This document shows, in pieces, positions 22,741 to 50,171 of a DNA stretch of 64,000 nucleotides. Under the pieces are notes generated by a model, which saw nothing but the letters and a program-made list of their open reading frames with translations, ran no database searches and was not told the DNA's origin. Position 1 is the stretch's first letter, and the number at the start of each line of letters is the position of its first letter. The stretch is taken from assembly GCA_951230915.1 (NCBI GenBank), contig OX579641.1, positions 11,842,001 to 11,906,000 on the forward strand, in the 5' to 3' direction. Source of the stretch: Antitrichia curtipendula (lineage: Eukaryota; Streptophyta; Bryopsida; Hypnales; Leucodontaceae). Made by a program: the position numbers and the translations under genes.

Positions 22741-23491
22741 CTTGACATACATGCATCCGAAAACGATGGAAAGTTATTCGCTTTGGTGGAATGGCGGGTC
22801 TTTAATTAATTTCCTAAGCAAATACGATTCTAAAGTTCCCGAATCAATGGAAGTGGATGACATTGTGAAGATGACGGATACCCAATTGACAATTGACGAG
22901 TTGCAGTAGGTTGCCACATTTCGCAAAAATCGAGTGAACCTGGCACTGTCATTGCTGGTTATTGTGGGCAAATGCCACGAGGCGGACTACATACACAATG
23001 ACATATCTACATCCAATATTTTGCTCCATTTTGATCCATGGAAAAAAGAGAAAATATATTTGGGGATTTGTGATTGGGGACTTTCCAGTCGAGTCCTAGA
23101 GAACGCGCCATCAAGATACGGTTACCGAAAGCAGGAGGCACTTGATAAGGAGAAAGCAGCTCGAAGGTTTGCTGCTCCGGAATTGTTCTATTTGTACGGA
23201 GAGCAAGGCTCAACTAACTCACTGGAGGTCATGGAAAAAAAACATTTATACTCTAAAGCTGCTGATGCATATGCCACAGGATGGATAGCAGCTCAAATCT
23301 GGAAACAAGAGTGGGATCCAGTTTATTTTCGCAAGAACCAAGTGTGGAAATATACAAACCTACTAGTGAAATTGAAAAGCCTTCAAAACGAAGAACCGCA
23401 AGGAAGGGCGTCCATCCCGGATGTTCTTGATAAATTGAGGATGGCACCGTACTGCTGGATTATGCCTGAGTGTTGTTATCGAAGACCGTAA
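22741..23491 (+). pseudogene. C-terminal half of a split protein kinase gene
   Basis: From the hAT end at 22741 the frame reads a kinase hinge (WWNGGSLINFL), then after an in-frame TAG at 22907 the catalytic loop YIHNDISTSNILL (HxDxxxxN), ICDWGLS (DWG in place of DFG), AAPE, and the helical C-lobe to the stop at 23489-23491. The N-lobe is absent here; it lies at 33011-33242 on the opposite strand beyond the other hAT copy. Joining N-lobe to C-lobe across one 8-bp target site keeps the frame (RLT|YMHPKTMESYSL). The catalytic loop with Ser instead of Lys after Asp-Ile recalls FunK1-like rather than typical receptor kinases. The gene belongs to the giant hAT element. Confidence 0.8.
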
Positions 23492-23863
23492 TTTTTTTTT
23501 TCACTCTAGAAAGTTCGGCAGATGAAAGTTAGGTTGAAGGAAAAGGTTAACGTTGTTAATCTATTATCCTCAGAGAGGATTATGTACATTTTGCCTCATT
23601 GGCTCAGCCAAACACTGTTCCATATATAAAACTATGGATATATTCAAAAGACTATTTTTTCCAATTACTAATTTTTTTTTTTGGCATGAAGTAAAAATTG
23701 ATGACCTATGTATGTCCAAACTCTTGAACGACGCAATTATAACCCTAAATCAAACATTTGGCGCAGATAGAAGATACAAAATAATAAACAAATGCCTGTA
23801 TAAATGTATAAATGTGTATGTAACTACCAAGTTTTAATCCAAAAATGTTTGGCTTCAAAAAGG
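23492..23863 (+). other. 3' flank of the kinase fragment
   Basis: AT-rich, no gene. The 989-bp block repeated after the gap starts at 23621. Confidence 0.5.
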
Positions 23864-24435
23864 CAGGGATGTAACAATGTAGCACTTCCCAAGAGGAAAA
23901 TGAGCAGCAGCGTCCACGCCCCAACCAAATACCGTTGGCGCCTATATTAAAGTCCGCGCCCAATTGAACTTCAGTCCGCACCCTGACATGAATCCACGCC
24001 CCTGCTGTATTCTGTTTGCGCCCTGACACGAGTTCGCGCTCTGCCCAACTTAAGTCCGCGCCCGTCCTTTTTAAGTCCGCGCCCTGACTTAAGTCCGCAC
24101 TCTGCCCGAATTAAGTCTGCGCCCACACATGAGTCCACGCCCCGTCCTGTTTAGGGTCCGCGCCTGGACTTAAGTCCGCGCCCCGTCCTGTTTAAGTCCA
24201 CGCCCGCCCTTAAGTCCGCACCCCGTCCTATTTAAGTCCGTGCCCGGACTTAAATCCGCGCCTTATTCGACTGAAGTCCGCGCCCGGAGTCTGAGTTGGC
24301 AGCCAAGTAATTCCACGTCAATCTTTTTTTTAATTCACATAAAGTCAACAACATGTTGACTACATCGAACGGGTGAAGCCTCAATCGGACGGGCGAATTG
24401 GGCGGGCGGGCAACTTGCCCAGTGTGACAACCCTG
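23864..24435 (-). mobile_element. Subterminal array and terminus of the giant hAT element
   Basis: The segment ends with CAGTGTGACAACCCTG; on the minus strand this is the hAT terminus CAGGGTTGTCACA, identical over 13 bp to the terminus at 50171. Next to it 24436-24443, read on the minus strand, is ACAAGCAC, matching ACAAGCGC after 50171. From about 23910 to 24290 a motif close to AGTCCGCGCCC recurs about 15 times with 7-12-bp spacers. A second terminus-like sequence (CAGGGATGTAACA, 23864) marks the inner edge, so this piece might also have existed as a 572-bp non-autonomous element. However, its own 8-bp flanks do not match each other. Confidence 0.75.
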
Positions 24436-24609
24436 GTGCTTGTCCTTTTTGAAAGTAATTGGATATCTTATGTGAGTATCTATTTGACCAATTTGTTTGA
24501 CTCAGTCATGTAGGTGGTAATGATTGTAGCTATTTTTTTTTCTATTCAATCTATGATCTATGTTTATTTCCCTAGCTTGAGCATTCAATGGTTTGAGGGC
24601 TTGGACTTT

Positions 24610-24809
24610 NNNNNNNNNNNNNNNNNNNNNNNNNNNNNNNNNNNNNNNNNNNNNNNNNNNNNNNNNNNNNNNNNNNNNNNNNNNNNNNNNNNNNNNNNNN
24701 NNNNNNNNNNNNNNNNNNNNNNNNNNNNNNNNNNNNNNNNNNNNNNNNNNNNNNNNNNNNNNNNNNNNNNNNNNNNNNNNNNNNNNNNNNNNNNNNNNNN
24801 NNNNNNNNN
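24610..24809. other. Assembly gap (200 N)
   Basis: Exactly 200 unknown bases, a typical fixed-size placeholder. The 989 bp immediately before and after it are the same sequence, so the true gap is probably negative (overlapping contig ends). Confidence 0.95.
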
Positions 24810-25798
24810 CATATATAAAACTATGGATATATTCAAAAGACTATTTTTTCCAATTACTAATTTTTTTTTTTGGCATGAAGTAAAAATTGATGACCTATGT
24901 ATGTCCAAACTCTTGAACGACGCAATTATAACCCTAAATCAAACATTTGGCGCAGATAGAAGATACAAAATAATAAACAAATGCCTGTATAAATGTATAA
25001 ATGTGTATGTAACTACCAAGTTTTAATCCAAAAATGTTTGGCTTCAAAAAGGCAGGGATGTAACAATGTAGCACTTCCCAAGAGGAAAATGAGCAGCAGC
25101 GTCCACGCCCCAACCAAATACCGTTGGCGCCTATATTAAAGTCCGCGCCCAATTGAACTTCAGTCCGCACCCTGACATGAATCCACGCCCCTGCTGTATT
25201 CTGTTTGCGCCCTGACACGAGTTCGCGCTCTGCCCAACTTAAGTCCGCGCCCGTCCTTTTTAAGTCCGCGCCCTGACTTAAGTCCGCACTCTGCCCGAAT
25301 TAAGTCTGCGCCCACACATGAGTCCACGCCCCGTCCTGTTTAGGGTCCGCGCCTGGACTTAAGTCCGCGCCCCGTCCTGTTTAAGTCCACGCCCGCCCTT
25401 AAGTCCGCACCCCGTCCTATTTAAGTCCGTGCCCGGACTTAAATCCGCGCCTTATTCGACTGAAGTCCGCGCCCGGAGTCTGAGTTGGCAGCCAAGTAAT
25501 TCCACGTCAATCTTTTTTTTAATTCACATAAAGTCAACAACATGTTGACTACATCGAACGGGTGAAGCCTCAATCGGACGGGCGAATTGGGCGGGCGGGC
25601 AACTTGCCCAGTGTGACAACCCTGGTGCTTGTCCTTTTTGAAAGTAATTGGATATCTTATGTGAGTATCTATTTGACCAATTTGTTTGACTCAGTCATGT
25701 AGGTGGTAATGATTGTAGCTATTTTTTTTTCTATTCAATCTATGATCTATGTTTATTTCCCTAGCTTGAGCATTCAATGGTTTGAGGGCTTGGACTTT
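24810..25798. repeat. Duplicate of 23621-24609 created by unmerged contig ends
   Basis: The copy matches at a constant offset of 1189 and its boundaries coincide exactly with the gap edges. It therefore repeats the array and giant hAT terminus (terminus at 25624, flank 25625-25632). It should be treated as one locus, not as a second element. Confidence 0.9.
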
Positions 25799-26886
25799 TC
25801 TTTAAAGTGAAAGATGGATCTTACATCTATAGTGTTCCGGGCCAAATCTACATCCCTGAGATTGATGAGTTGAATGTTGGTTGATTTTGAATGTGATTGA
25901 AATGAAGTAATTGTGTCCTTGGTGACAGTTTAAAAACTAGGTAATATGGACAAAAAAATGACCTACTTTTACTTGTCTTCATTACATAAAGTCATGTGGG
26001 TCTTTGCAAATGAGTCGTGTTTTAATTATATAAAAGAGATGACCATATCCCATTTGACTGTAGTGTTTTGGGGGATATAAGAACCGCAGGGTTCCAAAAA
26101 AATTGAATGTGTTGATGTTGCGAGAGTTACTAAAATGTAAAGCAGAATTAGCAAATGAATATATTTTGTTAGTCGGACCCTCAAATTATTTAGAAAGTTT
26201 TCCTTTAGTATTACTTTCTGTATACGACAGTAAACGGTACATTCCGCACACTTAGTGAACCATTAATGTAGCCCACTTGCCATGCTGCCAACATTCAACC
26301 TTTGCCATCTTTATCAATAAACTGAAATTTGATTGTAGTTGACTGAACCTGCAATTCAATGTAGTGCATTTGTAAGCGATGCACCCATACACAAACCTAA
26401 GATGATTGGCAATTGGTAACTGTGTAATTTCTTGAGGTTCTCCATCACGGCCATCTGATTAAGGTATGAATTGTCAATGAAAAGATTGAAGTCCGATCAA
26501 TCACGCACCATAGAAGTCCAGAATGCCCAAAGACCCAATTCCTTAGTGTTCCTGTGGAATTTCACAGATCGATCGACGTCTATGGAATTCCCGGCTCTTG
26601 ATATTCCAATCTGGAGCTGTAAAATTTGCACGCACTAATATGGAAAATGGAATATCTAATTGTGTTCATGGACTTCTGTATTTCATTGGTGAATACAGGT
26701 AGTGATCCACTACGTCCGATCCAAGGTCAATGTTAATCACAACAAAATCATACAATATATCGTGCCTAATCTGGGCCGGCATTGTGGGTGTAAGTTCGAG
26801 AATTCATCAGTGTCATTTAAAAATCATAATGACTCAATCCAACTCCCAAATACTGAAGACTTAAACTCCCGGCAACTCATTCCAAG
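25799..26886. other. Unassigned remainder of the palindrome spacer
   Basis: No gene is supported. The last 8 bp (26879-26886, CTTGGAAT on the minus strand) match the left flank of the other hAT copy (16609-16616, CCTGGAAT) at 7 of 8 bases. This sequence was therefore originally adjacent to 16616. Confidence 0.6.
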
Positions 26887-29800
26887 CAGTGTTTTTTTTT
26901 TCTAATTCAAGGAATCTGGATGTGGGCTCCAATTTAAAAGGAAGTGATGAAGGTTAGGCACACTCACAATTTTCTGTGGTGCAAAATCTGGCTCCACATA
27001 CAAAAGAAGTGGGAGAGGTATGGCATCAGGAGAAGAAGCCAAAAAAACACATTTGGCCATTTGAATTTTTAGATTGGTGCGCAATTTGGCAACTGAGAAT
27101 TTGGGTTGGTGCAAGATTGGGCAACAATTTTTGAAAGAATAGAGCAAAGTGGGCAACACCATAATTTCAGAAAGTCCAATTTAGGCTTTAATTCAATCCA
27201 CTTTTCAAAATAACTTCGATAACTTTTCAAAATACTTTGATGTGTAAATGAATCTCACATTTCTACAAACATTAGCCAACCACACTGAGCTAAACTACAC
27301 TTGTATCCTACAAAGACTCCGACGCATAAGACCTGCACACACACACAAATACTCCGACGCGCAAGTCAAAATATAATTAACTTAACTTTCAAAGAACAAG
27401 TAGCATTGAATCTGCACAAAAAAGGACCTGCACACACACACACAAGCACTCCAACACCGAAGTTAGGAAATAATGCAAATACAACTTTGACAAAGCAAGT
27501 AGCACTTAAGCTGTAGTTAATGTGGGCATTGCGATCCAATTATCTCACTGTTTGCATTATCCCCAAAGACTTCAAACGCTCAGAGAGATTTCAGAAACAA
27601 ATCCTACAGATAGTTCATTTGAATAAAAAATCTTTGGAATTCGGTGGGAGTGCTATCAGGAGGAGATTGTGTGGCATGGAATCTTGAGCCAATTGACCAG
27701 TCCTTCTAATTTTTCTACAAAAGTACTGAGTTTAAGTCTATATAAACTTGCTGACTCAAAGTTCAGAAAGAAATCAACACAGACCTGTTGGTGTCATTCA
27801 GGTAAGTCCCCAAATGACGACTCCTTCAATCAAGATGTTTCATCTAGATCTGAGTAGTCTGTAGTCTGTAAAAGAGGAACTCAATCCAGATTAATCACCG
27901 TTGATCTACAATAGATTTCGATGAGAGCTTTACTGTATTGCATAGACGGAATAACGGAGATTGGAAAAAAGTTAAGATGAATGCTACATTTTTGAACACC
28001 AGACATCTGTGTGTCTCTCTAATATATTAGACTTTGAGTTTCCAAAATGGCTTTCTAATTTTAGTTTGTGAAGGTAGGGGTTACTAAGTTCCAAGTTTAA
28101 GCTCAAACAAATGGATTTGACCAAGACGACAAGAAGAACAGAAGCTATTTCTTACCATCGTTAGCTTCATTGTAGTATTCTAAATACTCACAAGCTGTGC
28201 CTCTCCTTTGGCACTCTGCAAACAAATCAGCCAGATCATTAGATTGTGCAGTGATGAAGAACATTACCAATCCCAAGCAAATGCAAATTAGAACAATGGA
28301 CATAGACCAATTTGATCATTGCAGATTAGCAAACTCCACTCCATCACAATTTCCCCATAAGTCATATTCAAAGACCTGAATATTCCATCCACTAACCTTC
28401 TTATCAAGGCCAAGCGCCTTAGTACAATCCAATTCAACGTTGCACAAAAGGAGACCTGCACACACACACAAAGACTCCGACGCTCAAGTCAGAAAATGAA
28501 GGAATTTCAGTTTTCACATAAGAAAGGAGCACTGAACCTGGCACAGAAGAAGACCTACAAACACAAGAACACTCCGATGCCCAATAGGAGAGCATTGTCG
28601 TTCCTTTAGAAACACTGTACACTTCAAGTTCAAAGTTAGAGCTCACTAAAAGGGCATCACAAAGCAAAATGAAACAAGAAAATAGACAAGTTCTTGCATA
28701 CAAGTGAGAAGACTACAACCCATAAGCAAAACCGTTTCTTCTTTAAGACAAGGTAGCATGAACAGAAATATGATGCTACTCTAAACTTTGGAATGTGGTA
28801 TGCCACAAAAATGCAACCTCATACATTTCTATTGCTACAGAAAGATAGATAGAATCTAAAGCAAAGAAACTACAACTACCACATATCTAAAACCCTGTAG
28901 GCATCAAACCTTCCCTAGAGACATAGAACCTAAACCTGAAAAACACAAGACCTATGGGAATGCTAAGCCATTAATCCATACCGATAGTTATCAGCTTGAT
29001 TGACCCACTGGAGGAAACACTTCTCATAAGGAAAATCTTCCAAGGTGTACACCTTTTGCCCATGCATGCCAACGACTAGGCTTAGATGATCACCTTGCAA
29101 CCAATTGCGGAGCTTGTCCTTCAAGAACGCAAGTGAGGAGAAGCAGCGTTCGTCTTCAACGGATCCAAGAACATGGATCATGGCAATTTCAGCCAATTTC
29201 ACATATTCAAGAATCTCTTTTGCCAAGGACGTGTTGGCATCGATAATCCGCCATAGGCGAGTTAAAGGATTCACAGTCAACTGAGGGTCCTCCAAGGCAG
29301 CCATGCTGTTTGATAGCATGGACAATTTGAACAAGTGCTGCTGCAATTCAAGCTAGAAGCAATCAAGGAGGGCTGGAACTAGACGCTTGTTCTCGTCTTC
29401 GCCAATCCACTTCGGCTCACCATAAAATTTCTTTATCATGTCGAGATGCTTTCGAAAGCTCTTTTCAGCATCTTTTTGCCTCCAATATTGAGGGTAAACT
29501 ATACCCAGAGCATCCAGTAAACCATGGGCAGGAAAACGACTAGCTAGCTCATCGATCAATTGTTGGGCGGCACCTGCATCCAAAGAAGGTAGAGGTCAGA
29601 GCCTAGACCACCTCAGACTGCCAATACTGAATTTGCAATTAATCAAAACAATTAAAACACACTTACCCGTGCATTCACTCTTCATATCTTCAATGAGAGA
29701 ATTCCAAGTTTCTCTAGTGATTATAGCACCCTCATGCCGTGCAGTCAGCTCCTCTCCATTGACAACAAATTGCAAATGCTGGACATCGTTTAGGTCCATA

Positions 29801-32800
29801 GAGCTCCATGACAGAAAGATTTGGTCATGACGGAGCTCAAGCAAGTTTGTCAAGTGCACAAATTCGGGACCACAGAAAGCTAAGCCATGACCCTTGTACA
29901 TCTCAAAGAGCTTCCCTAAACATTTCTGGAGTGCCCCCACGAAGTCACAAATATAAACATCCCGCTGTTGTGCAAATTGGATTAGGACATCCACGACTTC
30001 CAGAAGCGGGAGAAGACATATCATACCAACCACATGATACGGATCCAGCATCTTCTCCAGCAAGTCCTTAGCCTTTGCACGAAGACTCCGCTGCAAAAAA
30101 TGAAAACACAAGTCAGTGAGGCTATGAACCAGCCAGCCACAAACACCTTGAATGCAAGACAGAGCAGTGTGGAAGCAAATTTCGACCACAAAGCCAGCAG
30201 ACAAACAGGTAACCATGCACCACAATCCTCCAAGGCTCACTCTTCCAAAATTCACAAGCCTTCTCCCCTGCTTAAATGAATTGCAATGACAACAGAAATA
30301 AGACCAAAAAGAACTACAAGGATGGACTACAAATCCTCTCCACCTCTCTCTCCTGCTTGCTCACATCACTTCTAGTATGCAATCCTATCATAGCTCCCAA
30401 CAATGAATGCAAACTCACTCTGATCCCCACAATGTGTAAACATGTGCAAAACATAATCATACCGTTTCAGCCTTGTTGATCGAATCCAAACGCAGCTTGG
30501 ACATCACTGAGCGATACTCGCTGAGAAGGCGCCGCAGTGGAGAAATGAGAGAGATCCATCGCGTTGTGACATTTTTCAAGAGCTTCAGGCCTTTAGTATC
30601 CACCAATTGTGCCAACGCGCGGAACTCTGCTTGGCATTTCGGAGAGTGAGCAAAGTATGCATGGCAAAGCTTACACAAATCTTCGACTGCGTGGAACAAG
30701 TCGAGCCTACTCAGTGTTTTAACTGCCAAGTTAACTCGGTGTCCCATGCAGTGAACACCAGTGACATGTGGCGCATACTTCGCCTTCAACTGGACAGTAA
30801 CTCCTGTTCTGCAACCTTGAAAGGTAGAGACGCCATCAGCTCCGAAGCAAACCAACTTTGTCGCTATTGCGACCTCATCCAAGTCACCACGAACTCCAAC
30901 AACGCCCATTAAAAGGGCTGTCAAATTATCAGCTGTTGCACCGTCAGACTCCAGTTTCTGCAAGGTAATGAGGAGTGGCACACGAACCCAGTCTAGCATG
31001 ATGTAAATATGAACAGCGATGTAAGAACAATTATCTACGCCAGACGTTTCATCACACGTTAGGGCAATATACTTAGCAGATTTAATCATGGCTTTCATCC
31101 TCTCTTGCACAAAGGAATACATATGCTCAGCCATTAACCAGCCAGCACCAACACTCCAATGCATCGACGGGCAGTTTGGAGTTTCCAACAAACGGTAGAG
31201 ACTGAATTTTGCCTCGAACTCAGCCATAGGTCGACCAGCACATAACAGCTGAAACAAAGTTGCAAACTGCACCCGCTTCCTTCGTGCTTCTGTAGAAGTA
31301 CAGTTGTTGATTTGTTGGAGAACAGAAGATGGACGTTTGGCAACATACAATAACATGTTCACTTTGTGTACCTTACGGTGAGCATGCTTACTGATGGTGT
31401 CCCACTTTGGTGCCATCAGTCGAGGCTTCTTTCCAACGTCCGAGCACACTCGACATTTAACCATATGCAGCCAGCCATCTGTAGTGAGAACCATTTCGGC
31501 CCAGGGACACTTTGCACTCCACTCCATTTGGAATTTGCGAGTTAAATCATAATTAGGTTTTCCCAACCGAATAAGTGGCTGCAGCTCCTCCTCCTCGTCC
31601 ATATCGTCACCAGACAGGTAACTGTTCTCCATAGGACCATGCACCGCAAGGAAGTCTGCATCGTCCTCACTGCACAGGTAGCTTGGAGAGTCAGTAGATA
31701 ACGATACTACTGGAATTGGCGGCTTTGAACTCAAAATTACACAACTCCCTGGCTCTACAGGAGATGTAACAGCATCATTTGCATCCAAAGATACAGGTGG
31801 TGGGGAAAGGACTCGGCGAGGTTGTGAGGATACACTCTTTCTTCTACTTGAAGAAGATAGCGTTTTCTTCAATGGATCGTGGAGATCCAGGGGACCACGG
31901 TTCTCAGAATTGCGTGAAGTTGTGTAAAAGCTCCGAAGGGTGACCTGGTCTCTAGCTCTCTTCTTCCCTTGCTCCTCCGAGACTCGGCGCTGCTGCTTCC
32001 GCTTTCTCTCCGCAGCATCCACGATTTGCTGATTGCAAAGGTCTTTCCTCTGCTTCCTCAATTGAGACTCCGCAGCAACCTTCCGTCCCAAGTTTGATTC
32101 AGATGCACCGCTTGCGTCTTCGGCCCCAGATGCATCAGCCAACACCATTGTGAGTAGAGTTTTAGCAAGCAATAACACAAGACTGAAACGGTGAATCACC
32201 AAAAGCCGAAGCTTCAAATTCAACGACTAAACGCTGAAATTCAAACTTTGCGCAAGTGAACATTCGATAGCAATTCATGAAGACTTGCAGCGGTGTAGCA
32301 CTCTAGCCGTCTACATCAGCAATCCAGCACGTAAACATTCCATGCAAAACTTCACTGAATACACCAGCAAAGCGAGATCTGATATCACAAAACTTATACC
32401 TCCTAAGTTGGAATGCATGGGGGTGCAAATTCAAGCTTCCGGACCTCCTCAATCGAGCAATGAACACCAAATCCGCACAGACATTGAAAGTGGCCATTAT
32501 TTTAACTACAAAAAATTGCACAAGATGAAGACACTCAATGAATCCGGCAAGATTGTGTACTTGCTGAATTTGTTTCTGGCGCTACAACAATGAGGATGCA
32601 GCGAGTGGGGCGATTAATCAACTCTGAACACAGCGAGTGGGGCGATTCATCAACTATGAACACAACAAGTGGGGCGACGAGTGGTGAAGTACGAGTGCAT
32701 TTTGAAGCGGACCCTAAACCCTAGACTGGCGCCAGGATGAAAGCTTCGTTGCAAATGTGGCGTCCCATGTACGCAGTGTGGGTATTTTGGTGAACTTTCG

Positions 32801-33010
32801 GCGACAACGGATGAAAAGTGGGCAACTTGAGGTGGCGACAGCTTGGTAAACCCGGGCAGTCATTGTCAACCTCGTGGCTGTCACTCTCTGAAAGGAAATG
32901 CTCAGGTGGCATTTTCAGCAGTTTTGTGATCTTGTTTTTTAATAGACCCTGGTGCTGCTCAAATTTTTTTGGTGCTTTTAGTCTGTAAATCGCCTAATTA
33001 AAATACATTG
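26887..33010 (-). mobile_element. 6.1-kb hAT transposon, right arm of the palindrome
   Basis: This is the inverted, nearly identical copy of 16617-22740. Its outer terminus reads CAATGTATTTT (minus strand), one base different from the left copy. The outer flank 33011-33018 is GTTGACAT on the minus strand, matching CTTGACAT next to the left copy (22741-22748). The inner flank is CTTGGAAT. The outer boundary interrupts the kinase N-lobe, so this element inserted into the kinase gene of the giant hAT. Confidence 0.9.
28963..32148 (-). pseudogene. hAT transposase of the right arm, one premature stop
   Basis: This is the same gene as at 17479-20664 on the opposite strand, with the same three-exon structure (exon 1 30463-32148, exon 2 29667-30090, exon 3 28963-29573) and the same in-frame TAG (29353-29355). 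All open frames of the two arms translate identically. The two copies therefore separated very recently or have been homogenised by gene conversion. Confidence 0.8.
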
Positions 33011-33950
33011 ATGTCAACCTGATGATGCCAGGATGCTTCACCGGACATCCTGTAGCTTCAACCAACATCTCGCAACGTTTTGCCTTTTGATCTGTGGTCT
33101 TCAAGTGCTTTCCCGCAAACTCGAGCCAGGTGGGGATGTTCGCAAGTTTCGTAAGCCGCACCTTCCTCATGTCCCCGTAGGTACCTTCAGCCTCTCGTCC
33201 TGGCATTGTTACCACTTTTACTAACGGTGATAGCCAATACATTTATCTGCTCACACATTCATCCAGAATTTTTTCTTCCTGTGTTTCTTTCCACAGTTGT
33301 TTTGTTTTATGGCGACTTACGCTAAAGTTACGACACCAAGTCTCAACTATGCGTAATTTTGAAACAAATTCTAGGTTTGCTTCATCCCAATTGCTCTTGT
33401 CCTCTTTCTTTTTCATACAATAACGCCAATTGTCCACAACATTAGTAGTCAGTTGAACCAACGTGTTATCCAAGAAGTCTGAGTATAACCAATAATCTGT
33501 GCAATTGTTGAACTGCTGAGATGCGGCGAACTTCTCGTCAAGCTCTCTCCGTAAATGCTCTACTAACGCATCGTAATCGTCGACATTCTTGTTCACATAG
33601 TTTCTCTCCAACGATGCAATGCTTCGCACTCTGTAGAACTCCACCAATATTAGCCTAGCTTCATTTAAATATTGTAGTGGAGGCCAATTCGGATTCGACA
33701 GCTTCTTTGCCCTCTTCTTCCCTGATGACGATGAAGGCTATGATGAACCTGACGCCAATGACATGTGTGTTGGTGGAAGACTTTCTTCATCAATCTGCTC
33801 CATGTCCACGAGCAGCAGACGCTTCCCAGACGAACCACTTCCTTCTGCTTGCATATTGAAATCGTATTCTTCGTATATGATTGGTAAGTAATCTGAAGTG
33901 ATATTCACTGGAAAAAACAAAAAAAAACCCGAATATGCTCTTAGGGCCAA
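33011..33950 (-). pseudogene. N-terminal half of the split protein kinase gene
   Basis: Reading leftward, one frame runs through a Ser-rich start (KRLLLVDMEQIDEE), a helical pre-kinase region of about 150 residues (33243-33700), and then the N-lobe. The N-lobe has a glycine-loop-like EGTYGDMRKVRL, a Lys in EFAGKHLK, a helix-C Glu in KRCEMLVEA, and HPGIIRLT at the hAT junction. In-frame stops are TAG near 33738 and TAA at 33243-33245; with the TAG in the C-half at 22907 the gene has three nonsense changes. Its promoter side carries a TATA box and the GTCCCCGCCC array (34051-34335). It is divergent from the RING gene at 36196. Confidence 0.75.
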
Positions 33951-39454: not shown

Positions 39455-39680
39455 CATAATTTTAATTCAACAATTCCATTAGCAAGTGCTTGTAGAAAAA
39501 CAACACATGTATTGTTGGCCATGAAAATATAATCTCCCCTTCAACTCCTTTGGAAAGTGGAGTAGGTGAACTTCTCCATTTGGGTATTTAATCATACAAA
39601 CTAGGAAGCATAAATGAGAGGCAAAGTACAAAAAACTGCAATTGACTAGAGAGGAAGAATCCCATGCCGAAGTCCATTGT
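39455..39680 (+). repeat. Direct repeat, copy 1 (copy 2 at 41241-41480)
   Basis: About 220 bp beginning TTCATAATTTTAATTCAACA and ending AGGAAGAATCCCATG recurs at 41241-41480 with modest divergence. Each copy is followed directly by a GTCCGCGCCC array (39694 and 41500). Repeat and array were therefore duplicated together, indicating internal duplication within the giant element. Confidence 0.75.
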
Positions 39681-39693
39681 GCTGTTTCCCTAA

Positions 39694-39870
39694 GTCCCCG
39701 CCCTTCAATCCCCGCCCGGACGTAAGTCCGAGCCCATGAGTCCTCGCCCTTCCTCCGTCCGCGCCTAGGAGTCCACGCCCGCGCGCAACAGACGCAACAG
39801 GGAATTACGTCCCCGCCCCAGGGTTCACGCCCGGCATTGAGTCCCTGCCATGCGTCCGTGCCCAAACACT
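39694..39870 (+). promoter_or_regulatory. GTCC(C/G)CGCCC motif array, internal
   Basis: About eight to nine copies, plus-strand polarity, with 8-14-bp spacers. No intact gene starts directly after it; degenerate CCCTAAA-like sequence follows (39900-39960). Confidence 0.55.
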
Positions 39871-40245
39871 TTCAGAAACCATACCCTAGACGTTTGGCTG
39901 AAACCCATTTTCAAACCCTAAACCAATAAACCTAATACCCTAAAACCCTGAAAACCATAAATCCTAACGTCCTTGATTACTTAAATTACTGAAGTAACTA
40001 CCTCTATATGTCTTTTCCTATTCCGCTTCTAAAAATATATATCCATATCGTTCAATGATGTTTTAATGATATGTTATCCATGTTTGCATATTTAGAGAAT
40101 TAAACTTTGAAGCCTTGTTACAACACTACGCCGAAAGGAAAAAAATTAATAAAGGTGGAAATGCTTCTCCACCCAATCCTTCTTGAGTTCTTGCCAACTC
40201 TTACAATAGCATTTCCAAGGCCTCACGGTGAAACCACATTGACAA

Positions 40246-40860
40246 TGGCTACCCTTAAAGATAAAAAAAAATGGAGAGGGAGTGATTAAGATTTTCATCA
40301 TTTGAAGTGGCTACCCTTAAAGATAAAAAAAAATGGGGAAGGAGTGATTAAGATTTTCATCATTTGAAGTGGCTACCCTTAAAGATAAAAAAAAAAATGG
40401 GGAGGGAGTGATTAAGATTTTCATCATTTGAAGTGGCTATCCTTAAAGATTAAAAAAATGGGGAGGGAGTGATTAAGATTTTCATCATTTGAAGTGGCTA
40501 CCCTTAAAGATTAAAAAATGGGGAGGGAGTGATTAAGATTTTCATCATTTGAAGTGGCTACCCTTACAGATAAAAAAAAATGGGGAAGGAGTGATTAAAA
40601 TTTTCATCATTTGAAGTGGCTACCCTTAAAGATTAAAAAAATAGGGAGAGAGTGGAACCGGGAGGGACTAATTAAGATTTTCATCATTTGAAGTGGCTAC
40701 CCTTACAGATAAAAAAAAATGGGGAAGGAGTGATTAAAATTTTCATCATTTGAAGTGGCTACCCTTAAAGATTAAAAAAATAGGGAGAGAGTGGAACCGG
40801 GAGGGACTAATTAAGATTTTCATCATTGGGAGTGGCTACTATTGAAGATTAAAAAAATTG
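40246..40860. repeat. 62-bp minisatellite
   Basis: About ten units beginning GTGGCTACCCTTAAAGATAA, including an A-tract of variable length and TCATCATTTGAA. Some units carry an extra AGAGAGTGGAACCGGGAGGG block. A two-unit higher-order repeat occurs twice (about 40560-40690 and 40694-40830). Confidence 0.9.
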
Positions 40861-41499
40861 GTAGAAGTGCTTGTCTACCAAACCTCTCTTGCAATTTCCG
40901 ACAATGAAATTTTCAAAGCCTTGTGGGAACACACACTTGTGCCACGCCGAAAGAGATAAATAAATTAATAAAGATAGAAGTGCTTCGCCACCAAACCCTT
41001 CTCGCTAATTCCAGCAATTACAAAATTATTTGCGATAACCGAACTCCAACAATGAAATGGATAAAAGTTCATTAAGGAATAAAATCCTTTGCTCCAAACA
41101 ATGTTAATAGAGCCATTGTTTTAGTTCTCTCTTTCCAAATTCGACAATTAAATGAATAACTATTTGAAAAGGAATAGAGTACTATTTCCTAAAAATTGAA
41201 CAATATGAAGGCAATGGCTAAAAATCGGAAATCCGTGTGTTTCATAATTTTAATTCAACAATTCCATTAGCAAGTGCTTATGAAAAAACAACACATGTAT
41301 TGTTGGCCATTATAGTATAATTTCCCCTTGAATTCCTTTGGAAAGTGGAGTAGGTGTACTTTATTCATTTGCGTATTTAATCATACAAACAAGGGAGCAG
41401 AAATGAGAGGCAAAGGGCAACAAATAAATGCAATCCACATTGAATGGAGAGGAAGAATCCCATGTGAAAGTCAAAGTCACAGCGAAGGTGCTGTTCACC

Positions 41500-42318
41500 T
41501 GAGTCCACGCCCTTGAGTCCCCGCTAGTCCGTAAGTCCGCGCCCAGGGGTCCAAGCCCGTGGTGAAGTCCGCGCCCAAGAGTTCACGCCCCAGAACTAAG
41601 TCCGCGCCTCAAAATCCTTGCGTCCACGCCTGGACACTCCCGACAGCCAAATGGTTTTTCTGAAATCCTTGAGTCCGCGCCCGGACACTCCCGAAAGCCA
41701 AATGGCTTCCGGGAGTGATTTTGAATTCCTTGAGTCCGCACCCCATGCGTCCGCGCCTGGACACTCCCGAAATCCAAATGGGTTTGTGGGAGTGATTCTG
41801 AAATCCTTGAGTCCGTGCCCCATGAGTCCGCGCCCGAACACTCCCGAAACCCAAATGGTTTTCGGGAGTGATTCTCAAATCCTTGAGTCCATGCCCCATG
41901 AGTCCGCGCCCGGACACTCCCGAAACCAAAATGGCTTTCAAGAGTGATTCTCAAATCCTTGAGTCCGCATCCCATGCGTCCGCGCCCGGACACTCCCGAA
42001 ACCCAAATGGCTTTCAAGAGTGATTCTCAAATCCTTGAGTCCGCGTCCCATGCGTCCGCGCCCGGACACTCCCGAAAGTCATTTGGATTATCGGGAGTGA
42101 TTCTGAAATCCTTGAGTCCGCGCCCCATGCGTTTGCGCCCGGACACTCCTGAAAGCCATTTGGGTTATCGGGAGTGATTCTGAAATCCTTGAGTCCGCGC
42201 CCCATGCATCTGCGCCCGGACACTCTTGAAAGCCATTTGGATTATCGGGAGTGATTCTGAAATCCTTGAGTCCGCGCCCCATGCGTCCGCGCTCGGACAC
42301 TCCCAAAAGCCATTTGGC
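41500..42318 (+). repeat. GTCCGCGCCC array expanded into a 76-bp hairpin minisatellite
   Basis: The array starts with simple motif spacing (41500-41620) and then becomes nine to ten tandem units of about 76 bp. Each unit contains two GTCCGCGCCC motifs and an inverted repeat CACTCCCGA...TCGGGAGTG able to form a hairpin (9-bp stem, loop of about 17-20 nt). Later units are more alike than earlier ones, suggesting recent local amplification. Long open frames on both strands here are by-products of the repeat. Confidence 0.85.
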
Positions 42319-43005
42319 TTTGAATCCTTTTAGTTGAAATTATTTGCACTATTGATTTTGATTTTCTACTTATTTATGTTAAGTAGTTGAGTTGAGAATG
42401 TACCAAGAAAAATTAGCAAGAAAAGCACTTAGTTTTCAGTTTTCACTCATTAAAAACTAATTGTTAAGCAGAGCTAGGTTCAAGAATCAAGATTGAAGAA
42501 AATACTAAATTATTAATTGCTTTTAGATGAAATGGAATCACAATTATTCCAACAAAGAAATTGTTCTAGCAAGAAAATCTAGCCCTATTTAACAATTATT
42601 TTTTTTAAATTCTAAAAATTGCATTCAAAAATGAATTCTACAAGTTATTTTTTCGAGAAGATGCTTACATTGCTCGGAAAAACTAAGATTGTCCATAACT
42701 TTCTCATTATTAGTCACATGTAGACAAAAATATAATCTTTGAATCAAAAAATTTGAATAAATTTGTTAGACTTTTTGTGATTTTTTTTGGCCTGCCTGCC
42801 AAATTTCATTTTTGCTTATTTTGCCATAACTTTGGCTCCTAGGCATGAATGAAAATAAAAATTATATTTTCACAAAGCTCTTGCAAAAATACACAACCTC
42901 CAAAAATCCCAAAAAATATTACTAAAAATTGAGACAGTAGGAATCTGCACGGACCCAATTACCGAAATTGTACCCCGAGGGGACAACCGGTCCTTTAGGG
43001 GTTAA
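42319..43005 (-). mobile_element. TTAA-flanked element, reverse orientation, one end lost
   Basis: Homologous to the reverse complement of 52463 to about 53140, including CCCCGAGGGGACA and the terminus CCTTTAGGGG-TTAA (43002-43005). The other end, about 240 bp, is missing at the junction with the hairpin minisatellite. Confidence 0.65.
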
Positions 43006-43350
43006 AACAATCAAATTTTTGGTTACTTTTCAAAACCTATGTATCTTGTGCTTTGTGGTTGTATACAATTGAGAAAAGTGCATTTGTAGACCATCAAACT
43101 CAACATAAGCAACGTGAGGTTGTAGGTGCAATTATGATCTTAGACTTGCAGAAGAGGGCTTGTCATTGAAGCTTCAAATTACAACCAAAGAGCTTACAAA
43201 GTTACAATGTTTCCACATCAATACATGAACAATCTTGGGATCATGAACAGTCCTAGGTTTTATCATATAAACAAATATACAATGCCCCTATGCCCCTAAT
43301 GTATCTTACTAACGCCTGAATTGCATTGTTCACTGGTCAATTCAAAGAGG

Positions 43351-44427
43351 TCAAGCTTCATCAATATGGCGGCGGGCATGCTCAAAGTCTTCAATCCTCT
43401 TTTTGTATCTTTCCTCTTTAATATTGAACTCTTTTTGTATGATCTTCTTCTCCCGACGAAGTTGTGAAACTTCGCCCTTTAGGCCTTCAATAATCTTCAA
43501 TAAAGAAGCATTGTCTAGGTTGGACATCCCTGTTTCCCCGTCCACCATATGTAATAACCCTTCTGTCATCATGGAAGGCTCCAACTTAGTCCCATCTCCT
43601 GAACATCCTCGCTCAAGTTGGTTCCACCTATCAATAACCGCGAGTTGTTCCCCCAAATTCTCAAGTGGTTCAAATGATAATCCAGCAACGTTGTTGTGAA
43701 TTTCTGTTTCTTTTTGTCCGATATGAACACCTTCAGTGCTCTCCGATGAAACCAAAGACTCATTATAAGACTGAAGTTGAGTGTCTCTTAGATTAAGCAA
43801 TATTTCATCCCTCTTCTCCTTTGTGCATCCAGATTTGAGGTCAACATCTGAATCTTCGGACCATTGTACCAACTCATCTACAGTGTATTCTATAGCATAT
43901 TTTGCCTTAGACATGCCCCCATAGCTATACTTCCGTTCATGTGGGATCTCAATGCTCTCTGAAGCTTTCACAATTTGTGTTGAAGCAGTCTTTATCGTAG
44001 ACCAATCTACACGACGAAGTAGTTTCTGCTCTGCATACACCATACGCAAGATGGCAAGGCTACATTCGTTCCTAATTACATACATGGTGCGATATAGGTG
44101 CTGATGTCCTTGGATGCATCTTTCAAGGAACTTCGGGTCCTTGCAATAGTGCAGGTTGGCTACACTACGCTTGCAGTGTTTTTTGTGCTCACTGTGTGGA
44201 AATACTTTATCTATTTGACACCAATCAATGTATTTGTCACAAGTTTTTTTAGTCCAAGGTTGTGGTTTGGTTTCCCAACCAGCAAAGGCTAGCTTATTTG
44301 AATCAAATAGAATATGCAAGCGCTTTTTGGATGCTTTGCAATTGCGAGCCCTCCCCTTATCACGAGGCCTCATAGTACAAAGAACATCAACCGTTTCATT
44401 TACCGTGCCCTGACTAGATTGGGACAT
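43351..44427 (-). CDS. Coiled-coil protein, paralogue of the RING gene N-terminus
   Basis: An intact 358-codon frame from ATG (44427) to the stop at 43351. Residues about 20-210 match the N-terminal block of the gene at 36196: KLAFAGWE, CDKYIDWCQIDKVFP, NLHYCKD, RRVDWSTIK. The C-terminal 60 residues are a strong coiled coil (LKGEVSQLRREKKIIQKEF), and the protein ends there, with no RING finger. It is either a naturally short form or lost its 3' part. It is divergent from the transposase gene, with a GTCCCCGCCC array between them. Its function is unknown; a partner of the transposase (compare the accessory proteins of En/Spm or MuDR) is an inference from context. It is the only giant-element gene here without a disabling mutation. 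Confidence 0.6.
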   Translation of the reverse strand: MSQSSQGTVNETVDVLCTMRPRDKGRARNCKASKKRLHILFDSNKLAFAGWETKPQPWTKKTCDKYIDWCQIDKVFPHSEHKKHCKRSVANLHYCKDPKFLERCIQGHQHLYRTMYVIRNECSLAILRMVYAEQKLLRRVDWSTIKTASTQIVKASESIEIPHERKYSYGGMSKAKYAIEYTVDELVQWSEDSDVDLKSGCTKEKRDEILLNLRDTQLQSYNESLVSSESTEGVHIGQKETEIHNNVAGLSFEPLENLGEQLAVIDRWNQLERGCSGDGTKLEPSMMTEGLLHMVDGETGMSNLDNASLLKIIEGLKGEVSQLRREKKIIQKEFNIKEERYKKRIEDFEHARRHIDEA

Positions 44428-44639
44428 ACTGCATCAAGATTTTAGCGCATGCTAAGGACAAATCTCAACTACGGAATAGTGCAATTGTTTTTAATCGGAA
44501 GGAAGGAAGTAGTGAAATGGACGTGACGAGTTCTGGCTGCAATACCGAGGTCCAAAGCCCCAACATGGAGCTTTAGAGCGAATTCCAAGATTTCAGGGCT
44601 GACCGGTTGGCATTGGGGAACGCACCCGGATTGGGCGGG

Positions 44640-44885
44640 TACTTATGGGCCCTGGCGCGCACACAAAGAGCGCACTCCGTTCCCGCCCAGTGAAACTGTC
44701 CGGGCGCGGACGTCCCCGCCCGGCAATGTGTCCGGTCGCGGACTTCCCCGACAACGTCCCCGCCCATGCCCTGCGTCCCCGCCTGACCTTCTCGCGTCCA
44801 CGTCCTCACTGTTTGCGTACGCGCCCAAGCCCAACAACGTTCGGGCCCATGCGACAAGTCCCTGCCTGTACTCACTAGGTCCCCG
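44640..44885 (+). promoter_or_regulatory. GTCCCCGCCC array in the divergent promoter of paralogue and transposase
   Basis: About nine motif copies (CGTCCCCGCCCGGC, CGTCCCCGCCCATG, CGTCCACGTCC, GTCCCTGCCTG), all plus strand. It ends about 18 bp before the transposase TATA box. Confidence 0.7.
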
Positions 44886-44902
44886 CTACTACAACGATCT
44901 TG

Positions 44903-44910
44903 TATAAAAG
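44903..44910 (+). promoter_or_regulatory. TATA box of the giant hAT transposase
   Basis: TATAAAAG immediately downstream of the motif array and about 245 bp upstream of the chosen ATG (45155). Confidence 0.6.
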
Positions 44911-45154
44911 CAGAGGGGCAGCAAGAGGCCCTTTGTCTTCCGCCCGTGCCTCTTTCCAGGTGTTCATTTTGAGTTCCTGGGTTGATTGAGATAGTGGGTG
45001 GAGGACTGCGCTGGTTTTCTACTGAGGTGATGTCAAAATCATTTCAAGTGGACGATTGGCACTAACAGTTGTTACTGGCACATATTCCTTGAAGACATTG
45101 AAGAATCCTGAACCCTTGCTGAAACATCCTATTTTGCACTTACCCGGGGCTGTA

Positions 45155-48100
45155 ATGGGTACCTTACGAAAACAAACGAGGGAGTGGGAACCGTGGTACG
45201 ATTTCTCAAATGATGGAAGTAAAGTGACTTGCCTCTTCTGCAACAACACATTTAGCTACAAACGTGAGCGGGCTTTTGCGCATTTTGGGTTCAAAAACAA
45301 GTCGGATAAATCTTTGTGTCCCCAAATGCCTCGGGCTGTGCGGCATCGATTTGCCAACTGTGCAAACTTTGTTCCTCAACGAATGATGGTTGAAAACGTG
45401 GAAGACATGCAGTCAGATCCGATCGCTCCAAGCACAGTTGGTCCCATAGCGAGTTCAAGCCAGTCCACTCAAAATGAAGTAATGGGGGGAGGGCAGACAA
45501 ATGGTAGTCATCCATCCGAATCATTTGAGCCTCCGCAACGATCTATGAGCCGTGCTGCCTCAAATTCAACAAGATCTGGACCAGTACGTCAACAACGCAT
45601 GGAGGATGCTATGAATATGGCAAAGAGGAAGGAGTTGGATGAAAAGTGGGCAAGTTTTTTCTATGAAGCGAATGTGCCATTCAATGTGGCGAGGAATCCA
45701 GCATTCATCGCGGCGGTGAGGGCAACCTCTGTAGCGCGCTTTGAATACAGTCCACCTTCGTACCATCAGTTCAGGACCCATTTGATTGAACCCAAGAGAT
45801 TGCAAATCAAAAACGAGATCAAAGCAAAAATGGCCTTTGCTGTGGAGAATTATGGGGTCACGCTGTGCACCGATGGTTGGAACAACGTCAATCGTCGGCC
45901 CCTAATGAACGTCATGATGTCTTGTCCCACTGGTGATGTGTTTTGGGGATCCATAAACACTTCTGGGCAACTGAAGACCATGACGTACATAGCAAACCAA
46001 GTAAAAGCCTTCATCGACAAGGTGGGTCCCAAATATGTAACCCAAATTTGTACAAACAACGCCAAAAACATGCTTGGAGCAATGAAAAATGTCATCTTCA
46101 CGTACCCACATATCTTCAAGCAGGATTGTATGGCGCATACACTAGATTTGTTGTTGGAAGATTGGGCCAAACTCCCCGGTTTCAAGAACTTAATTGCCCG
46201 GGCAAAACACCTGTGCCAGTACATTAGGGCCCATCATGCAACAATGTCCACTTTTCGTGAGTTGAGTCCAAACAAGCAGCTCTTAGTGCCTGCCGAAACC
46301 CGCTTTGCTTGTAACTTCCTGATGATGCAACGGTTGGTTCTATTGAGGACTGCACTGGAGGCCTTGATACTACACCCACGTGTTCAGAATTACATGGCGG
46401 GGTTACGGGATGTACCAAATGGTCCGCAATCGGCTACCATCGCAGGCTCTGTGGTCCACACTATTAGAGAGCTGGATTTTTGGCAACGATGCAGAGATTA
46501 TGTGTTCATAGTGGAAGACGTGCTGAAGGCCTTGCGTGTGTTTGATGGCCGAGAACCAGCCATGGGCAAGGCGTGGCTTACAATGCACAATTTGAGGGCA
46601 CACGTGTTTTCATTGAGAGAGCCACCCTTCAACCTACCCGACGTCTTAGCTGACGAGTTGGAGATAACCTTCGAAAAAAGATGGAAATTCGGATTTTCTG
46701 ATCTTCACTATGCAGGTGCGTTGTTGAATCCATACATCAGGGACCATCCGCAGCTTAAAGAAGACGGAATTGCGCTGCATGCATTGTATTGGGTTGTCCA
46801 CAAATTAAAAGATGTGGTGGGTGTGCGTTTTGATGTCGTCATGGAAGAACTAACTGAATACGAAGAGGGTACTGGACCATACAGTCCTGACGAAACACCC
46901 AACATTTGTGAGAGCAGTTTGCTTCCCACCAATGGTGGCACCAAATCGCAGATCGGGCCTTGTCCAAAATAGCAGAGCGTGTTCTATCCCTTACATGTTC
47001 GGCATCGTCTTGTGAAAGGAATTGGAGTATGTATTCCTTTGTCCACAACAGGAGCAGAAATCGCTTGACAGTGGATAAGGCCGAAGCTTTGGTATACATC
47101 TATACCAATAGCCATGTCCTTCGTCAGAGACCAGGGGCCGATCCAGTTTGTTGGTATGATGTAAATGTGCTCTCGGAGGATTCCAATCCAGATGCTCTTG
47201 GCCCCGTCCCGGTGAACGAACCTTATCGTGCATTTGCTGCAATGCAAGCAGAAGATGCGGAAGACGAAGAGATGGAAATGCCTAGGGCCCCTGTGCCATT
47301 CCGGGCAAATGTAGATTTGTGGGGAGAAGGGGCCGATCACCTTGAGGAAGCGAGGAATTACTACGGGGTTGGACCAAATCTCGATGACAATATTCCTGAA
47401 AATCATTGGGGGGCCCGGTCCTCGCCGCAACCTTTTACCTCCTCCTGTTCCAAACGAAGGCGTTGGTGGAGCGTATGCTGCTCAACGAATCTCTTCTTCT
47501 TCCGAGGGCGAAGAAGCCAGTGCAGCAATTCCTGGCAATGATGATTCCCCCTCTGACGATGACAACAACAACGATCACCCCCGTCCAGGAAACAATGGAG
47601 GGAATAGAGACGATTCCAATGATGGGAATGGAGGGAATTTGGAGAATCGTACAACTCAAAGTAATGATGGATCTGCCCATAATGGCAACGATAGTAGGAG
47701 ACTTGGCAGGGTGGGAGGCCAAGTCGGTGACAATATATCCGAAACAAGGCACCATGTTACAAACATCGGAGGTACGAGAATGGCTCGTATAGATGCAACA
47801 AATGAACGGCACATTGGTTTTGGGAGGCGTTTTGACCCTGAGCATGTGGAAAATGATGACATTCTTCAAACACAATTTAGTGCTGCGCTCCCGCCTTCTT
47901 TTGCGGCTCCTATAATTGGTCATGGACGAGGCCGAGAGGTGCAACGGTCTATTCCATCTGCTACTAGAACTCCAAATCCTACCTCCATACATTTTGGAGA
48001 AGGATTAGACTCTATAGGGAATGCTGAAGTGACGGTGGAGAACATTTCGAATACTACTAGAGGTGGAAGACCCCCTCAAATCCCTTGTGACCCCGCCATG

Positions 48101-48649
48101 GGTGAATATGTGTCGCGTTCTTGTGGTTCTCGCGGAAGAAAGAACACTAGCAGAGCATCATCGTCAACCCCCCCTACAAACCCTATTCGGGGAATAGGAG
48201 TGAGATGCCATGGAGTGCTGATAGAACCGTTCACCCGAACGGACACTCCGGACCCCACTTTGACGACCATACCATCTGTGATTTCCGGAGGTCGAAGAGG
48301 ACCGGCTGTAGAGGCTGATGGCACAGACCCTGCTGCAAAACGACACAAGAGGTTTGTGCCCAGATATCGTGGACGTGGAAGAATAGTCACTGAGCTTCAA
48401 AATGAAAATTCCGAGGTCGAGGGCTATCAGACCTCAGATGCTGTCGAGGATCCATTCTATTTTGATGGTGTAGACGACAAAGATGACAACAACGCGAATC
48501 GCGACTGTGATGAGGCACCAGAAGATGCTGATGTGCATATTCCAACTGCTCATCGAGCGGGGCCTTCTGGCCAGGAAGTCCGTAGATCAAGTCGTTTGAA
48601 TAATGCAATGCAACCAACACCAGATCTTGAAGACAATTCAAGCACTTGA
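45155..48649 (+). pseudogene. BED/DUF659 hAT transposase with long disordered tail
   Basis: The frame runs from ATG 45155. A BED-type finger (TCLFC...AHFGF...C, about 45225-45320) and a Ser/Gln-rich linker are followed by the DUF659 core (PPSYHQFRTHL, LCTDGWNN with the first Asp, QDCMAHTLDLLLEDW). The usual TDN of the second catalytic Asp reads CTNNAKNM (Asn codon 46055-46057), a loss of a catalytic residue. Two frameshifts follow: about 46909-46914 in a GAGAG run, after which the dimerisation block WWHQIADRALSKIAERVLSL...CERNW continues in another frame, and at the six-G run 47408-47413. The last about 400 residues are acidic, Asn/Gly/Ser-rich, with RYRGRGR and RRSSRL stretches, unusual for a hAT transposase. 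This copy is inactive. Confidence 0.8.
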
Positions 48650-49515
48650 AAGAAAGATGTAGGATGAAGAGAAAGGGTTGGAATGTTCTTTTGATAACCA
48701 ACACAAAAGTCCACTTGTCAAGGAAGTATATGGCTAGATATTTAGTATACATTTATATCTTTAGCCATGTAGTCAGCGTGTCATGGTTGTATTGTTATTT
48801 TATTTTGCAATGCATGAAATCTATAAGTATTTCTGGTTATCACAATGATGAGAGCATGCATCTTATTTTTTTAATGTGTCATGCATGTTAAATGCGCTTG
48901 CAAACCACATGGAATACTACATGCTTTGTGTTTTGCAAATTGCAATCTTTATTTGACATATTGCAAATAACTTATTATTAAATTTTACGTTTGAAAGTTG
49001 AAACTTCTAATTTTTTTATCATAAAGACCCATGAATTGGTTAAGCCCTAAGTAAATGTCCAAGGCAACTAATTATTATGCCGATAATACTGTGGAGGTAA
49101 ATGAGCCCTAACTAAGTTCCTGATTTCAGTAGTTTATATTTTTGGAAAACTAAATTTGCGGCCTATTTTTAACATCAAAAATCTAATTTGGAAATGATTG
49201 GTTAAGATTCTTCTTTTCAAAATTTCCGAAAAATCTCGGTCATTTTCAATCAATCATTTCCAAACCTTAGACATCCTCATGCCGGAAGTCCGGAACATGA
49301 AAATGTTGGAGTCTGTAAGTTATCTTCTTGGGTTATTTTTTGTACATGATCTAATTTGAAATTGTATGCTTACCGTTCTGCAAAAAATAGAAACAACTTA
49401 CCAAAATCTCATTTAGAACAATTTGTTAGAAGTTAGAACCCCCCAAAAGAAGGTAACCACTCCAAACAAGACAGGACTTCAACCTGCGGGACACAACGTC
49501 CACACCCCTATAAAA
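48650..49515. other. 3' region of the transposase gene, no gene
   Basis: AT-rich; only a short low-value frame at 48646-48891 is present. Confidence 0.45.
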
Positions 49516-49519
49516 ATAG

Positions 49520-50171
49520 GTTGCCAATCAACTACGTCCGCGCCTTGACAAGCTCCGTTTGCAATAGACTGTGTCCACGCCCAGAATATCAAGGTATCCA
49601 GCCGCACACACGCATCTGCGCCCAGAAAATAAACGCCCGCGCCCAACCGAGTCCGCGCCCACTTTCTGCAAGTCCCCGCCCCAACAGAGTTCGCGCCCTG
49701 AAATTATAAATTACTGCCCTTCAACGTTTGTACCCGAACGATAACGTCTCTGCCCGGACCCATACGTCCGCGCACAACAACTTTAAGTTACCACCCAACT
49801 GAGTCCGCGCCCGGGGTATTACGTCCCCGCTCCCTCTTAGCAGTTCGCGCCCTGACAGTATAAGTCCCGCCCGACTACGTCCGCGCCCAGGAGAAAACGT
49901 CCCCGCCCTAACCGATACGACCCCACCCGACGCTGGAAAGTTTCCACCCATCTCAGTCCGCGCCTAAGCAACGACGTTACCGCCCGCACCATACGTCACC
50001 GCCCTCAGCGTCCGCGCCCAAGTTCCAACGTGGATTGACACGTCACGAAGTGAAGATAAATCATTTTAATTTTTTTTAATTGGAAAAAATTCGACGCCCG
50101 AAGTGTCCGGACCGTCCGTCCATCCGTCCGGGACGTCCGATGACCTTGGGACGCCCGATGTGACAACCCTG
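49520..50171 (+). mobile_element. Right subterminal motif array and terminus of the giant hAT
   Basis: About 24 copies or near-copies of GTCC(C/G)CGCCC fill 49520-50040 on the plus strand at about 20-25-bp spacing. A GTCC/GGAC-rich stretch and the terminus GATGTGACAACCCTG (ending 50171) follow. At the other end (23910-24290), once the spacer is re-inverted, the motifs have the opposite polarity. The two subterminal regions are therefore inverted with respect to each other, as expected of transposase-binding regions. Confidence 0.75.

Follow-up and report, generated by a model that had tools for sequence, protein, structure and literature searches.

The window analyzed here, a 64,000-nucleotide stretch of the moss Antitrichia curtipendula (assembly GCA_951230915.1, contig OX579641.1, positions 11,842,001 to 11,906,000), very probably (we put it at roughly 0.86) holds a copy, now old and broken, from a lineage of giant multigene hAT transposons whose accessory proteins would serve the element. 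Besides the transposase, this element carries genes for a protein kinase, a RING protein, and a RING-less paralog of the RING protein. A gene set of this kind recurs at many other sites in the genome, which suggests that the extra genes work for the transposon, and it is from such sequence comparisons that we infer a service of the accessory proteins to the element.

Bounds of the element and its full copies

A 13-bp terminus, CAGGGTTGTCACA, marks both ends of the element. Three exact matches to it lie in the window, all of them on the minus strand: at the left end (24423 to 24435), at the right end (50159 to 50171), and at 25612 to 25624. With up to two mismatches allowed, there are six matches versus 1.83 expected, a count reached by 1 of 100 shuffled sequences. 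The match at 25612 is a second image of the left terminus, part of a 989-bp sequence that is 100% identical on both sides of an N gap and probably an assembly duplicate. Since all three exact termini share one orientation as they lie, their pairing rests on re-inverting a spacer (22745 to 26882) that contains the left terminus and the end of the kinase gene.

Across the 400-Mb genome, the exact terminus has 83 forward and 85 reverse matches, compared with 7 for a reversed control pattern. From the first 100 listed terminus places, we sampled 13 facing pairs, four of them 17.0 to 22.8 kb long and nine 6.4 to 9.0 kb. The four long ones, E1 to E4, are full copies bordered by perfect 8-bp duplications (GAACATCC, GCGGTGGC, CACCATGG, and TTCCCAAG), and all of them carry the transposase, RING, and kinase genes in one order. 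The paralog extends over amino acids 7 to 358 in three of the four (in E1 in two frames), while E3 keeps amino acids 7 to 45 only. The question asked beforehand was whether other copies keep the gene order and have 8-bp duplications; E1 to E4 do, with a near-complete paralog in three. Separate termini between the kinase/RING and paralog/transposase halves had also been named as a sign against a single element; none of the four full copies has an exact terminus inside, and each has a single perfect duplication. Two hallmarks of hAT elements are therefore present: short CAGNG-type inverted repeats, here the 13-bp terminus at both ends, and an 8-bp target duplication, which matches at 8 of 8 bases in all four full copies and at 7 of 8 in the window and in K3, a relative described below.

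The re-inversion of the spacer, proposed from the window alone, is borne out by these copies, in all of which the two window pieces adjoin. Namely, positions 24435 to 22745 read backwards and positions 33013 to 50171 meet at exactly the rejoining point, with end/start positions of 1694/1693 in E1, 1591/1590 in E2, 1653/1652 in E3, and 1635/1634 in E4; E1 to E4 show the uninterrupted site. Re-inversion also restores the target duplications, at 7 of 8 bases, for both nested elements described below and for the giant element (left, 24436 to 24443, ACAAGCAC once re-inverted; right, 50172 to 50179, ACAAGCGC). Without the nested copy A′, the window element measures 18,850 bp, so the earlier claim of termini at 24435 and 50171 bracketing about 18.9 kb, with flanking duplications, holds. 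The start then given for the whole feature, 22741, marks where nested copy A has its edge, and the ends of the element itself are 24435 and 50171.

Within these bounds, the CpG-rich motif GTCC[GC]CGCC occurs 42 times, compared with none in the 29 kb outside; in reverse orientation, it is found six times within the leftmost 500 bp and at one other place. Its clusters lie at both ends (24000 to 24300 on the left; 49480 to 50030, plus strand, on the right), adjoining the kinase and RING starts (34050 to 36080, plus strand), between the paralog and transposase starts (44690 to 44890), and at two further internal places away from gene starts (about 39.7 and 41.5 to 42.3 kb, within 39690 to 42320, plus strand). 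Once the spacer is re-inverted, the left array has the reverse orientation and the right array the forward one, an arrangement shared by E1 to E4. This layout would fit recognition by an element protein.

The present arrangement of the window copy involves two nested elements. A (16617 to 22740, plus strand) lies outside the giant element and has the duplication CCTGGAAT/CTTGGAAT after re-inversion, and A′ (26887 to 33010, minus strand) sits in the kinase gene and has the duplication ATGTCAAG/ATGTCAAC after re-inversion. They occupy the arms of a 6130-bp inverted repeat (16615 to 22744 and 26883 to 33012) with three differences. Their CAGTG-type termini and their duplications of 8 bp make both hAT-like; of the three larger open reading frames (ORFs), two were searched, and neither had a Pfam match at 0.01. 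The kinase gene of the window copy received A′, and the spacer between A and A′ was inverted, either by recombination or through misassembly. Between the two, the call is even. The spacer holds a 200-N gap (24610 to 24809) whose 989-bp flanks (23621 to 24609 and 24810 to 25798) match each other at 100% identity and probably represent a contig overlap that was left unmerged, and it is itself flanked by 6.1-kb inverted repeats at 99.95% identity, all of which favors an assembly error; recombination between inverted repeats, however, would yield the same product. The giant-element reading stands whether the inversion is real or misassembled.

Other differences among copies concern the interior. 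About 2.4 kb present in E1 to E4 (E1 7047 to 9466, element coordinates) have no counterpart in the window at about 38832 to 38839; either the window lost this stretch, or E1 to E4 gained it by insertion. Parts of it match window positions 42315 to 43005 in both orientations. Tandem repeats of about 62 and 76 bp, seen as offset self-matches at 40246 to 40869 and 41616 to 42324, vary among copies.

The genes and their linkage across the genome

The transposase gene lies in three frames on the plus strand: the largest piece, with the Pfam domain DUF659 (45056 to 46972), a hAT C-terminal piece (46960 to 47541), and a long C-terminal tail (47342 to 48649). The transposase lies in an open frame in E1 (1207 amino acids) and in E2 (1210 amino acids), and in X1, another relative, both DUF659 and Dimer_Tnp_hAT score above the cutoff. 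The residues that we take to be the catalytic D, D, and E are all present in E1 to E4, and one is substituted in the window. Together, the DDE residues and the C-terminal dimerization domain mark the predicted product as a hAT transposase; the best PDB sequence matches of one relative were Hermes chains, at a nonsignificant E value of 0.07.

The kinase gene is severed by A′ and the inversion into an N-terminal part (33243 to 33647, minus strand), in the same frame as the kinase of the relative K1, and a C-terminal part of the kinase domain with HND and DWG motifs (22934 to 23491, plus strand). Intact, it encodes 526 amino acids, stop-free in K1 and K2. The protein kinase domain PF00069 scores above the Pfam cutoff, and across an alignment of 34 rows the catalytic Lys, Glu, Asp, Asn, and Asp motifs either show no variation or are at least 90% conserved. 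A model of one relative (P0016; predicted local distance difference test [pLDDT] score, 84.5) has ordinary protein kinases as its nearest structures, while another (P0014), searched by sequence against PDB, had no match at 0.001. By its motifs and modeled fold, the product is thus predicted to be a protein kinase. Its relatives in prokaryote genomes comprise five weak matches (29 to 40% identity over short stretches), and none were found among 43 viral contig stretches.

The open part of the RING gene (36514 to 38439, plus strand) covers the rest of the N-terminal domain, a coiled coil, the RING, and a C-terminal domain, with a stop upstream and one ligand substituted. The eight RING-H2 ligands (C3H2C3) are complete in five of nine copies (E1, E2, E3, K3, and X1), as expected of a predicted RING-H2 protein. 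The 358-amino-acid paralog (43351 to 44427, minus strand) aligns with the N-terminal part and coiled coil of the RING protein, and no RING is seen in it. Thus, the two divergent gene pairs of the sequence-only reading stand as a contiguous gene set, and the description of both coiled-coil proteins as RING paralogs does not. The gene set is real; in the window copy, breaks or substitutions affect the kinase, RING, and transposase genes, and the kinase, apart from A′, has three stops in 525 aligned codons. Kinase frames of about 606 amino acids, stop-free over the matched stretch, also occur at window-family loci. In all, we found 13 relatives of the RING protein, 34 of the kinase, and 45 of the transposase, mostly on short contigs.

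To count linkage, we used genome-wide protein searches that scored part of the candidates (transposase, 69 of 1648; kinase, 150 of 1175; paralog, 114 of 1703; RING, 69 of 1566), so all counts are lower bounds. The N-terminal domain of the paralog accordingly has at least 114 relatives in the genome. By identity to the window, the scored transposases fall into bins, which are not strict clades, of 93 to 100% (n = 15), 67 to 69% (n = 25), and 65 to 66% (n = 29). A kinase match lies within 30 kb of 50 of the 69 (11 of 15, 15 of 25, and 24 of 29 by bin). On five chromosomes of known length, 33 of 44 transposases are near a kinase, compared with a random mean of 1.06 and a maximum of 5 in 500 draws. 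The arrangement is bin specific in distance and in strand: kinase and transposase lie on opposite strands in 10 of 11 cases in the window bin (all but the window itself) and in 14 of 15 in the middle bin, and on the same strand in 24 of 24 in the last.

The RING loci tell a similar story. With limits of 30 kb for the kinase and 50 kb for the paralog and the transposase, 13 of 17 window-family RING loci have all three nearby in one order; of the other four, three have neither a kinase nor a transposase match, and E3 has no paralog. Among the 14 with a kinase nearby, the window alone deviates in kinase strand. In other classes, a kinase lies within 10 kb of 48 of 52 RING loci, on the same strand in all 48.

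Three classes (window, X, and K) have the kinase and RING genes linked to a transposase, with transposase identities of 66 to 78% between classes. K3 is 17.9 kb long and bounded by CATGGTTGTCATACTG and TTATGACAACCCTG; it has a duplication matching at 7 of 8 bases, the array motif, and kinase, RING, and transposase on one strand. In X1, kinase and RING are divergent with the transposase downstream, and a right terminus was found. Neither has a separate paralog. K and X are the closest pair in all three proteins, by a narrow margin in the N-terminal part of RING. A more distant relative, F (two joined pieces, L036/L037, 5778 to 12763), has two genes: a RING-less 530-amino-acid coiled-coil protein of the same N-terminal family as the RING protein and the paralog and a transposase of 39% identity. 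No kinase match was found in its 17 kb and no exact array motif. This one locus suggests that the transposase and a protein with the N-terminal domain may be the older pair, to which kinase and RING were joined later. In a further family, Y (pieces C7 and C5), Y1 has a diverged piece resembling the N-terminal part of the kinase, and Y2 has no kinase-like piece in 8 kb.

Between classes, omega (dN/dS, the ratio of nonsynonymous to synonymous rates, calculated here by the Nei-Gojobori method) is 0.12 for the kinase, 0.12 to 0.18 for RING, and 0.16 for the transposase in the K-X comparison; for the window family versus K or X, it is 0.21 to 0.24 for the kinase and 0.15 to 0.18 for the transposase. 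RING values of 0.10 to 0.15 for window-family pairs with computable dS are rough, since dS, at 0.9 to 1.7 for kinase, transposase, and K-X RING, is at least 2.3 or saturated there. The K2 transposase, whose row derives from a neighboring element, was left out. These estimates, 0.10 to 0.24 where computable, show similar purifying selection on kinase, RING, and transposase between classes.

Alternative explanations and a possible mechanism

Several observations weigh against a lineage of giant elements with working accessory proteins. Nineteen of the 69 scored transposases have no kinase match within 30 kb, which may reflect decay, incomplete scoring, or separate families. In X1, the array motif is scarce, and a left terminus was searched for and not found. 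One RING ligand is changed in four of nine copies (window, E4, K1, and K2), RING scores fall below the Pfam cutoffs, and the RING protein model is poor (pLDDT 57), with no match at an E value of 0.001 or better in a fold search. Kinase core residues are kept in seven of nine copies and changed in the catalytic loop of E2 and the APE motif of E4; moreover, all five compared copies (window and E1 to E4) have one to four stops in the kinase reading. Within the window family (five copies, 10 nonindependent pairs), omega is 0.45 for the kinase, 0.49 for RING, 0.71 for the paralog, 0.52 for the transposase, and 1.14 for its tail. Noncoding stretches put through the same procedure gave 0.55 to 0.63, and the gene values do not differ clearly from these. 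Recent copies therefore look near neutral, and within-family dN/dS was dropped as proof of selection after this control.

Near neutrality would be compatible with kinase and RING being passenger host genes that were caught up at random (Pack-type capture) and bring the element no benefit, and plant DNA transposons are known to hold captured gene fragments. Retention of the kinase-RING pair in three classes, under the between-class constraint where omega could be computed, and the kinase adjoining 48 of 52 other-class RING loci make this very unlikely. Separate kinase/RING and paralog/transposase elements, nested or side by side, would account for the lack of a separate paralog in K3 and X1 (the window family may have gained it), for the internal arrays, and for the two of 13 four-gene loci in which the paralog and transposase lie 35 to 40 kb from the RING gene. 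We rejected this composite on the four full copies, with their one terminus pair, one perfect duplication, and no exact terminus inside, and consider it extremely improbable. The constraint between classes is also compatible with accessory genes that act on the host, either stabilizing or protecting the element there or allowing it to benefit the host; nothing points to a host benefit, however, and stops fall within a 185-residue stretch in 11 of 17 window-family kinase matches, so we regard this as unlikely.

If the accessory proteins do serve the element, control of the element at the GTCC[GC]CGCC arrays is, tentatively, the most likely mechanism. The N-terminal domain of the coiled-coil proteins would bind the arrays at the ends and gene starts, the targets that the RING protein ubiquitinates at these sites would be a repressor, the transposase, or a host silencing factor, and the kinase would serve as an on-off switch for one of these proteins. 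The outcome would be either control of the transposase or a lifting of silencing at the arrays. A full phosphorylation-ubiquitination circuit, in which kinase and RING ligase target the transposase or host silencing factors at these element-specific CpG-rich arrays and are coinherited with the transposase through several classes, is a rather doubtful possibility.

Surroundings, small relatives, and known systems

Further repeats surround the element: 425 to 2218 and 59752 to 61546 are inverted (97.7% identity over 1.8 kb), and 11 to 425 and 58308 to 58724 are direct (94.5% over 0.4 kb). A 322-amino-acid open frame at 55346 to 56314 has no Pfam match at 0.01.

The nine small facing pairs, S1 to S9, share the exact terminus with the giant element. 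Perfect 8-bp duplications flank six (S1, S3, S4, S5, S8, and S9); S2 has an imperfect one, and S6 (L025) has no matching duplication. In S1 to S5, S8, and S9, 280 to 406 bp of the left end (76 to 82%) and about 216 to 230 bp of the right end (87 to 92%) are alike to the window element. No element protein matched any of the nine by tblastn; ORFs of at least 110 amino acids were listed for S1, S4, S5, S6, and S7. S7 (L026) was rejected as an element, being a long palindrome around an N gap, perhaps an assembly artifact, with a gene that we presume to be CK2-alpha-like. The remaining eight (L020 to L025, L027, and L028; 6.4 to 9.0 kb) have the exact terminus and, unlike S7, the array motif.

A second protein beside the transposase is familiar in plant DNA transposons, such as TnpA of En/Spm and MURB of MuDR; these, like the Mutator-like VANDAL elements, belong to superfamilies other than hAT, and we know of no kinase or RING in the En/Spm TnpA and MuDR MURB systems. 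VANC, an element-encoded accessory protein of Arabidopsis VANDAL elements, has targets that often form tandem repeats (PMC5735166). An anti-silencing factor of this kind would bind noncoding repeats belonging to its own element and strip them of methylation; the parallel seen here is one of repeat anatomy. In a plant hAT survey, the longest consensus is 7144 bp (Gulliver of Chlamydomonas), and none was detected in Physcomitrella (PMC6027215). The elements described here share with the surveyed hATs 8-bp duplications, the DUF659 and Dimer_Tnp_hAT domains, and termini, CAGGGTTG, that match the plant pattern [T/C]AGNGNNG; they differ in being 17 to 23 kb long with three or four genes. Among fungi, a TET/JBP dioxygenase is carried by hAT7 and IS3EU transposons, and TET+ IS3EU elements carry an alpha-kinase gene (PMC12730594). 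TET+ hAT7 elements are, like those here, hATs with a conserved accessory gene, but the fungal kinase carriers are of the IS3EU superfamily with an alpha-kinase, and hAT7 has 7-bp duplications (PMC12730594). Starships are likewise described as giant cargo-carrying transposons, but fungal, with a tyrosine recombinase and large, variable cargo. The earlier claim that no hAT encoding both a protein kinase and a RING-type protein had been described agrees with the titles and abstract openings of open-license PMC papers, in which no report was found; hATs with conserved accessory genes are a known kind, and the kinase and RING version is unreported in that material.

Whereas hATs usually have one gene within a few kilobases, this lineage reaches 17 to 23 kb, and its kinase and RING genes stayed under constraint during the divergence of its classes. 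Should transposition or silencing be regulated by the accessory proteins, the lineage would offer a sequence-defined system for the manipulation of host posttranslational control by a DNA transposon.

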